A program made the translations under genes and the position numbers. From NCBI RefSeq assembly GCF_002924445.1, contig NZ_PIGG01000026.1, forward strand, positions 310,001 to 374,000: a stretch of DNA of 64,000 nucleotides. The letters are read 5' to 3'. The stretch's first letter is position 1. Each line of letters starts with the position of its first letter. The notes below the pieces were generated by a model. The model was not told where the DNA came from, searched no databases, and was given only the letters and a program-made list of their open reading frames with translations. Source of the DNA: Minwuia thermotolerans. GTDB lineage: Bacteria; Pseudomonadota; Alphaproteobacteria; Minwuiales; Minwuiaceae. Below, piece after piece: positions 60,625-62,204 of this stretch.

Positions 60625-60640
60625 TTTTGCATCGCAGCAA
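60625..60640 (-). promoter_or_regulatory. PhaR-like operator, box 2
   Basis: On the minus strand TTGCTGCGATGCAAAA, 54 bases before the phaA start. It shares TTGCTGC-N3-GCA with the boxes at 60728 and 62189. Confidence 0.45.
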
Positions 60641-60727
60641 TCTTGATATTGCGCTGCCGCGATGATGCGCTTCCGCGACGTCACAGTAAACAGGCCCCTG
60701 ATTTGTGCTTCAATGTGTCGCGAAGAA

Positions 60728-60743
60728 TGCTGCGTTGCAGCAA
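60728..60743 (-). promoter_or_regulatory. PhaR-like operator, box 1
   Basis: On the minus strand TTGCTGCAACGCAGCA; it contains the exact palindrome CTGC-N3-GCAG described for PhaR binding in related alphaproteobacteria. Located between the phaC stop and phaA. Confidence 0.55.
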
Positions 60744-60745
60744 AA

Positions 60746-61984
60746 TCATTCCACCGCCGCCAGCCAACGCTCCAGCGGCCGCCAGAGGGTGGTTTCCGCA
60801 TGGCGTCCCACGACCATGCCGATATGGCCGGCGGGCAGCCGGAGCGTGGTTGCGCCGGGCAGCAGCGCCGCCAGAGCGGCGGCCGAGGCCGGCGGCACGA
60901 TGCGGTCCTTTTCCGGGATCGCGACGAAGGCCGGGGCGGCGATGCGCGCCGGGTCGATGACAACGCCGTCGATCAGCCAGTGGCCGGTGGCGGCGCGGTT
61001 CTGCCCGAACCAGCCGTTCAGGGTTTCCTCGGCGACGCGGGCGGTCAGGGGCACGCCGTCGTTCAGCCAGTCTTCCAGGGCGACGAAGCGGCGGGCTTCG
61101 GGGCTGTCCATGTCCAGCCGGCTGAAGGCCTCGAACTTGCGCTGCGCCAGGTTGGGATCCAGGGCGGCGAAGAAGCTCTGCAGCAGATCCACGGGCATCT
61201 CGCCGAAGGCTTCCAGCACCGGCCGCCAGAAACCGACCGATCCGGCGTAGACCTTCGCCTGCGGCGACAGGCTGGCGTGGAAATCCCAGGGCGCGGCCAG
61301 CAGGCCGAGCGCGGAAACCCGGTCCGGGTAGAGCTGGGCCGCGGCCGCCGACAGCGTGCCCCCCATGCAGTAGCCCACAAGCGGCGCGGGTCCCCCGGCC
61401 ATCTCCGCAACATGCGCCAGGGCGTCGGCCAGCGGCCCGGTGACATAGTCGGCGGTGCCGTAGCCGCGCACCGGGCCTGCCGGCGCGCCCCAGTCCATCA
61501 GCATCGGCCGCACCCGGCCTCGGCCGGCGAGCCAGCGCATCAGGCTGGCGCCCTCGTCCAGGTCCAGCACATGGGCCCGGTTGACCAGCGAGGGCGCAAA
61601 CAGCACCGGACGGCCGCCGCCGCCGAAGTCGAGCAGCCGCGCCGGTCCCTGTTCCCAGGCGGCCGGCGGCTCGGTCACGCGGCGTGCATAGCCGTGGCCC
61701 TGGTAGAGTTCGATCCCCCGCAGCGTGGCCGACAGGCGCTCCTGGACCTGTTCCATGACTGCCAGAGTCAGGTCCGTCTCATCGCTTTCGGCGATCTCCG
61801 CCGTCAGGGCTTCGGCTTCGGCGGCGAGCGCCGGATGCCACCGGATCAGCCCCCGCCGCGCCAGCGGCAGGGCCGCCGCCGCCCCGGTCAGCGACATCGC
61901 TGCCGACATCAGGTGCAGGCCGAGAGGCCTCGGCGAGATGCGGCGGATCGCCGGCGGCTGGGTTGTCGTCTCCGGGGGTGTCAT
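60746..61984 (-). CDS. phaC: Polyhydroxyalkanoate synthase-like alpha/beta hydrolase
   Basis: 412 residues; polymerises (R)-3-hydroxyacyl-CoA. The lipase-like box is GYCMGG with nucleophile Cys206, the PhaC form; the Asp in EKDRIVPP and His in AGHIGMVV complete the triad. The protein is much shorter than class I PhaC (about 580-600 residues) and a little longer than class III PhaC (about 355), and no phaE gene is visible. ATG 61984 lies inside an upstream small ORF. First gene of the minus-strand pha operon that can be recognised with confidence. Confidence 0.88.
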   Translation of the reverse strand: MTPPETTTQPPAIRRISPRPLGLHLMSAAMSLTGAAAALPLARRGLIRWHPALAAEAEALTAEIAESDETDLTLAVMEQVQERLSATLRGIELYQGHGYARRVTEPPAAWEQGPARLLDFGGGGRPVLFAPSLVNRAHVLDLDEGASLMRWLAGRGRVRPMLMDWGAPAGPVRGYGTADYVTGPLADALAHVAEMAGGPAPLVGYCMGGTLSAAAAQLYPDRVSALGLLAAPWDFHASLSPQAKVYAGSVGFWRPVLEAFGEMPVDLLQSFFAALDPNLAQRKFEAFSRLDMDSPEARRFVALEDWLNDGVPLTARVAEETLNGWFGQNRAATGHWLIDGVVIDPARIAAPAFVAIPEKDRIVPPASAAALAALLPGATTLRLPAGHIGMVVGRHAETTLWRPLERWLAAVE

Positions 61985-62120
61985 TACTCAGCCGTTCGAT
62001 CCATTCCCGCGCGGCCCGGCCGATGACGGGTTCGGCGTTCATCTGCGCGAGCTGTTCCTGCCAGAGCCGGATGAAGCGGACGGCCAGGCGGTCGATGGCG
62101 GGCCTTTCGCCAATGCTCAT
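61779..62120 (-). CDS. Small ORF overlapping the start of phaC
   Basis: A 113-codon frame starting ATG 62120. The first 46 residues, which lie before phaC, look protein-like: helical and amphipathic with FIRLWQEQLAQMN and AREWIERL. The remaining part overlaps phaC in another frame and is Gly/Pro/Ala/Asp-rich, as expected for a shadow. It may be a real short protein coupled to phaC, or a remnant of a PhaE-like or N-terminal PhaC segment. No family recognised. Confidence 0.35.
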   Translation of the reverse strand: MSIGERPAIDRLAVRFIRLWQEQLAQMNAEPVIGRAAREWIERLSNDTPGDDNPAAGDPPHLAEASRPAPDVGSDVADRGGGGPAAGAAGADPVASGARRRSRSPDGGDRRKR

Positions 62121-62188
62121 GACGGCACTCTAGTCCGGGCACAGGGTGCGGCCAAGCCGCCCCATCGACTGTGCAGTGCGCAAACTTC

Positions 62189-62204
62189 TTGCGCGTTGCA
62201 GCAA
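62189..62204 (-). promoter_or_regulatory. PhaR-like operator, box 3
   Basis: On the minus strand TTGCTGCAACGCGCAA, sharing the 12-mer TTGCTGCAACGC with box 1. It lies in the divergent gap between phaR and the phaC side, so it could serve autoregulation of phaR and control of the pha operon. Confidence 0.5.

Follow-up and report, generated by a model that had tools for sequence, protein, structure and literature searches.

The 64,000-nucleotide stretch of the Minwuia thermotolerans genome analysed here (the window) carries a polyhydroxybutyrate (PHB) locus in which phaR is divergent from a PhaC-like gene, with phaA and phaB lying beyond the latter and four predicted operators in the two gaps (Table 1). 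The phaR product contains the PHB_acc_N DNA-binding and PHB_acc domains, scores above the equivalog cut-off for the family and is the genome's only PF07879 match; a comparison of this protein with solved structures returned no sequence relative at E values up to 0.1. Its start is probably at 62254 (MAKSERKD) rather than at the beginning of the longer open reading frame 62227-62850, because the alignments of many relatives begin at residue 10 of the longer frame. The first-pass annotation had named the neighbouring gene phaC, a name that we replace with PhaC-like paralogue, since its product falls below every NCBIfam PhaC cut-off. Against the class III PhaC model TIGR01836 it scores 122.5 bits, where the cut-off is 365.3, it has no PhaC_N (PF07167) match, and its matches to PHA synthase structures are weak. 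The defining box of PhaC-type enzymes is the nucleophile motif G-x-C-x-G-G, and it is present in the translation as GYCMGG. A class I phaC is found elsewhere in the genome, outside the phaR locus. The order phaR, PhaC-like gene, phaA, phaB is conserved in most of 80 alphaproteobacterial loci.

Table 1. Genes and predicted PhaR-type operators of the locus, in window coordinates
Feature	Coordinates	Strand	Remarks
phaB, acetoacetyl-CoA reductase	58567..59289	-	TIGR01829 345 bits, cut-off 302.1
phaA, acetyl-CoA acetyltransferase	59396..60571	-	Thiolase_N and Thiolase_C; TIGR01930 489.3 bits, above cut-off
Box 1, PhaR-type operator (predicted), GATTGCTGCGATGCAAAATCG	60622..60642	-	centre about 61 bp upstream of phaA start; core YGCRNYGCR
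Box 2, PhaR-type operator (predicted), TTTTGCTGCAACGCAGCATTC	60725..60745	-	directly past the PhaC-like stop codon
PhaC-like alpha/beta hydrolase, class III-like, without PhaC_N	60746..61984	-	GYCMGG box
Small ORF, 113 aa, RLAVRFIRLWQEQ...	61779..62120	-	previously unrecognised; similar ORFs at the same place in many relatives
Box 4, PhaR-type operator (predicted), CGACTGTGCAGTGCGCAAACT	62166..62186	+	core match; absent from the first-pass annotation
Box 3, PhaR-type operator (predicted), AATTGCTGCAACGCGCAAGAA	62186..62206	-	centre 58 bp upstream of the probable phaR ATG (62254)
phaR	62254..62850	+	TIGR01848 146.2 bits, cut-off 109.45; PF07879 and PF05233

Three of the boxes had been described before, and all three lie where they were placed, with the heptamer TTGCTGC on the minus strand at 60634-60640, 60737-60743 and 62198-62204. 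The 16-mers of boxes 1, 2 and 3 read TTGCTGCGATGCAAAA, TTGCTGCAACGCAGCA and TTGCTGCAACGCGCAA in the window sequence. Boxes 2 and 3 do share a 12-mer, TTGCTGCAACGC, and the exact CTGC-N3-GCAG palindrome claimed for one box is present in box 2 as CTGC-AAC-GCAG; in boxes 1 and 3 the palindrome is imperfect. The common orientation of the three heptamers is likewise real but carries little meaning, given the near-palindromic nature of the motif and the match of box 2 on each strand. Their placement before phaA and in the phaR gap also stands, except that the phaR gap holds two boxes where one had been reported, the additional box 4 being centred 20 bp from the centre of box 3. Box 2 is located about 164 bp before phaA. 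A search of the phaR gap DNA against plasmids gave no match. Overlap between operator and promoter is unproven, since a promoter scan found no sigma-70-like promoter near the boxes.

The boxes were compared with the motifs published for PhaR and its relatives. The S. meliloti PhaR motif is described with the core YGCRNYGCR (PMC12542648), a palindrome of the TGC-N3-GCA type, and this core is present in all four boxes. The same source gives the R. sphaeroides motif as CTGCNNNGCAG, and for H. seropedicae PhbF the motif TG[N]TGC[N]3GCAA is reported, with confirmation by footprinting on phbF (PMC3206438); TG[N]TGC[N]3GC, the common portion of the PhbF motif, fits the boxes as well. None of the four matches the full 21-mer S. 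meliloti consensus exactly, each having one or two mismatches (two in box 4), which is no bar to operator identity because published sites vary between species. As a genome-wide pattern the exact published 21-mer was rejected, with 13 matches against 12 for its reversed form and thus no enrichment, because the Y and R positions at the core edges are too loose for a GC-rich genome. A loose pattern, TTGCTGCNNNGCANCA, allowing two mismatches, gave 833 matches against 405, unreadably many, and was also set aside. The core YGCRNYGCR alone is found 91 times in phaR gaps against 43 in shuffles, about two-fold only.

Counting was based on the half-site WWTKBTGCRNYGCR, which was chosen after viewing the boxes of the window, the phasin boxes of the same genome and the same-genus loci. 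The heptamer TTGCTGC by itself shows no excess over chance in the window (five occurrences, shuffle mean 7.97), whereas the half-site matches four times at three places, every one of them a box already noted, against a shuffle mean of 0.49; one shuffle in 100 reached four matches. Across the 4.9-Mb genome there are 40 matches against 4 for the reversed pattern, a distribution that is not random, though both the window and the own-genome counts are partly circular, boxes of this genus having served to tune the pattern. Neither the synthase and depolymerase genes of this genome nor the 79 other named alphaproteobacterial loci described below had any part in making it.

Hand merging of palindromic duplicates reduces the 40 matches to 35 distinct sites, seven of which precede five PHB genes: two at phaA, one at phaR, two at the phasin gene C40:93151, and one each at class I phaC and phaZ. 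The expected enrichment upstream of phasin and other pha genes is thus borne out for phasin, synthase and depolymerase genes alike. The synthase gene with a site (C22) is the only one in the genome that bears PhaC_N, and the depolymerase gene with a site (C31), encoding an intracellular depolymerase, is the only one with PHB_depo_C. Among the four phasin genes of this genome, the main one (C40:93151) has half-sites, the second has core sites and the third has two, all of these core sites falling outside the strict pattern, and no upstream site was found for the fourth. Some half-sites fall within coding regions, as for L080 inside a long ORF, and are expected as chance background.

In eight family relatives the half-site outnumbers its reversed form by 31-67 to 3-8 in seven genomes and by 60 to 24 in the eighth (G002); an order-level search yielded no genome beyond the nine of the family. 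In these nine genomes the half-site lies upstream of 13 of 22 phasin genes and the looser TGCRNYGCR upstream of 18, and the phasin-gene sites are often paired, at distances of about 21-22 bp or about 60 bp. One further phasin locus (L178) was left out of the 22 because a cut at the contig end made its offset wrong; sites were present there.

At the locus itself, all six same-genus loci, the present one included, have boxes in the gap between the PhaC-like gene and phaA, and none of them lacks a core site in the phaR gap. The boxes before phaA are kept in all five same-genus relatives that have this locus, some in tandem. The sister genome (L049) retains box 1, has a version of box 2 (TGATGCTGCAGTGCAGCATTT) in which the centre is altered and the match kept, and preserves boxes 3 and 4 together with their 20-bp tandem arrangement. 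In L050-L053 the boxes lie 56-95 bp before phaA, and L054, from another genus, shows the same 20-bp spacing between two sites in its phaR gap.

For the wider comparison 80 named alphaproteobacterial loci were fetched and 79 counted; L160 was dropped because it duplicates the contig of L055. Judging by identical match coordinates, G001, a member of the window's family, appears to be the Sneathiellales MAG contig JALXAG010000172.1, a hint at where the window belongs. Of 77 phaR/PhaC-like gaps, 20 contain the half-site (21 sites in all, against a shuffle mean of 0.53 and 1 for the reversed pattern), as do 9 of 65 PhaC-like/phaA gaps (9 sites, against a shuffle mean of 0.15 and 0 for the reversed pattern); these counts are not independent events, the loci sharing ancestry. 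The control gap between phaA and phaB contains none (0/52), and the bodies of the PhaC-like genes hold two half-sites in 110 kb over 88 loci. The strict pattern is missing from most gaps of the relatives (57/77 and 56/65, respectively). Azospirillum has no strict-pattern match in 20 gaps of each kind; its loose core is found 11 times in the phaA gap against 1.8 in shuffles, and 11 times against 11.6 in the phaR gap.

On these sequence comparisons the boxes are very probably PhaR operators. The earlier proposal that PhaR controls both its own gene and the biosynthetic genes is probably correct, being supported by the site enrichment, the link to PHB genes and the conservation of the gaps; by analogy with relatives, from which binding and the direction of regulation are taken, the probable targets of PhaR at this locus are its own gene and phaA-phaB. 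We consider it highly likely that the boxes are operators of the PHB-sensing repressor encoded alongside them, and that phaR, phaA-phaB, phasin, class I synthase and depolymerase genes stand under one switch. The TGC-RNY-GCA palindromes would be bound by oligomers of PhaR. Boxes 3 and 4, separated by about two helix turns, would cover the promoter region of phaR and the small ORF and provide autoregulation, while boxes 1 and 2 would cover that of phaA-phaB and allow repression of thiolase and reductase. Nascent PHB granules, as we infer from other species in which such titration is known, would draw PhaR off the DNA and lift repression, and the operators at the unlinked phasin, class I synthase and depolymerase genes would place the whole PHB cycle on the same switch.

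The alternative that survives best, though we think it improbable, is that PhaR binds the boxes with negligible effect on phaA-phaB, the control that matters being that of phasin and perhaps depolymerase genes, and the phaA sites being weak or vestigial. The imperfect palindromes in boxes 1 and 3 favour weak sites. According to PMC12542648, the S. meliloti phaR/phbAB region gave a weak shift and the phbA promoter was unaffected, and the affinity of P. denitrificans PhaR for phaR is reportedly about ten times lower than for phaP. Against this alternative, boxes before phaA persist in all five same-genus relatives with the locus and recur in 9 of 65 distant loci, and in the account of PMC10888616 B. 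diazoefficiens PhaR represses the phaA2, phaB2 and phaC2 transcripts, with PhaA2 and PhaB2 protein unchanged. Far less likely is that box 2 serves mainly as an RNA hairpin ending the PhaC-like gene (TGCTGC-AAC-GCAGCA): it does lie directly past the stop codon, where L050-L053 also have a box, but a terminator scan found no terminator-like site at the boxes, and the same motif upstream of phasin, phaC and phaZ genes is not explained by a gene end. That some other regulator recognising a similar palindrome uses the boxes is very unlikely, since they match three published PhaR/PhbF motifs and are linked to PHB genes, and the genome has a single PhaR. Chance repetition of a common GC-rich word, which the unremarkable count of TTGCTGC alone would allow, is already contradicted by the genome-wide enrichment and by gap conservation relative to shuffles and to the phaA-phaB gap, and is scarcely credible.

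PhaR control of these genes follows a scheme already known from other bacteria, here in a new host, and we claim no priority for PhaR operators in this group. The motif reported for PhbF of the betaproteobacterium Herbaspirillum seropedicae equals the half-site seen here; PMC3206438 describes PhbF binding to eleven PHB promoter regions, including phbF, phaP1 and the regions before phbC, phbA and phaB, and repression of phaP1 and phbF, demonstrated with lacZ fusions in E. coli. Its phbF lies downstream of phbC-phbB, unlike the divergent phaR of the present locus. Sinorhizobium meliloti AniA/PhaR resembles the system here in its YGCRNYGCR core, paired phasin operators and depolymerase-gene sites, whereas phbA and phbC are reported to be uncontrolled there (PMC12542648) and good sites precede phaA and class I phaC here. 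The PhaR proteins of R. sphaeroides and P. denitrificans, as cited in PMC12542648 and PMC10888616, also use TGC-rich boxes and are credited with phasin repression and autoregulation, while sites here extend to phaA-phaB, phaC and phaZ.

The analysis yields a PhaR regulon predicted from sequence for a group that has received little study, in which PHB synthesis genes, beyond phasins, are predicted to respond to granule state. It bears on the unsettled matter of PhaR control of biosynthesis and of itself, on which the published species disagree. More tentatively, PhaR may in this lineage be the single switch for thiolase-reductase, class I synthase, phasins and depolymerase, reaching the redox supply (pntA transhydrogenase, etfB) through often-tandem operators conserved across orders, a reading that contrasts with the phasin- and depolymerase-centred PHB branch of the S. 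meliloti regulon and that we hold to be less probable than not. Intergenic half-sites in this genome also lie upstream of L085 (pntA), L173 (etfB) and L168 (a MaoC pair), and further ones upstream of L082 (multicopper oxidase) and L057 (a HIG_1_N protein); the redox and acyl-CoA genes near half-sites are possible wider PhaR targets.

Boxes 3 and 4 are positioned immediately upstream of the small ORF located between the PhaC-like gene and phaR. A crude test, which also let in at least one wrong frame, found ORFs with a W..Q motif at this place in 72 of 84 loci. The small ORF and its relatives match no Pfam or NCBIfam family above cut-off. The clear relatives have in common LARRYLDLWQDQ, a linker that varies, a short coiled coil and a basic tail, and, judged by its position and the adjoining class III-like synthase, the small ORF could encode a PhaE-like partner. 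Relatives of it were also seen upstream of the PhaC-like gene in L086, L103, L109, L118, L125, L130 and L139.
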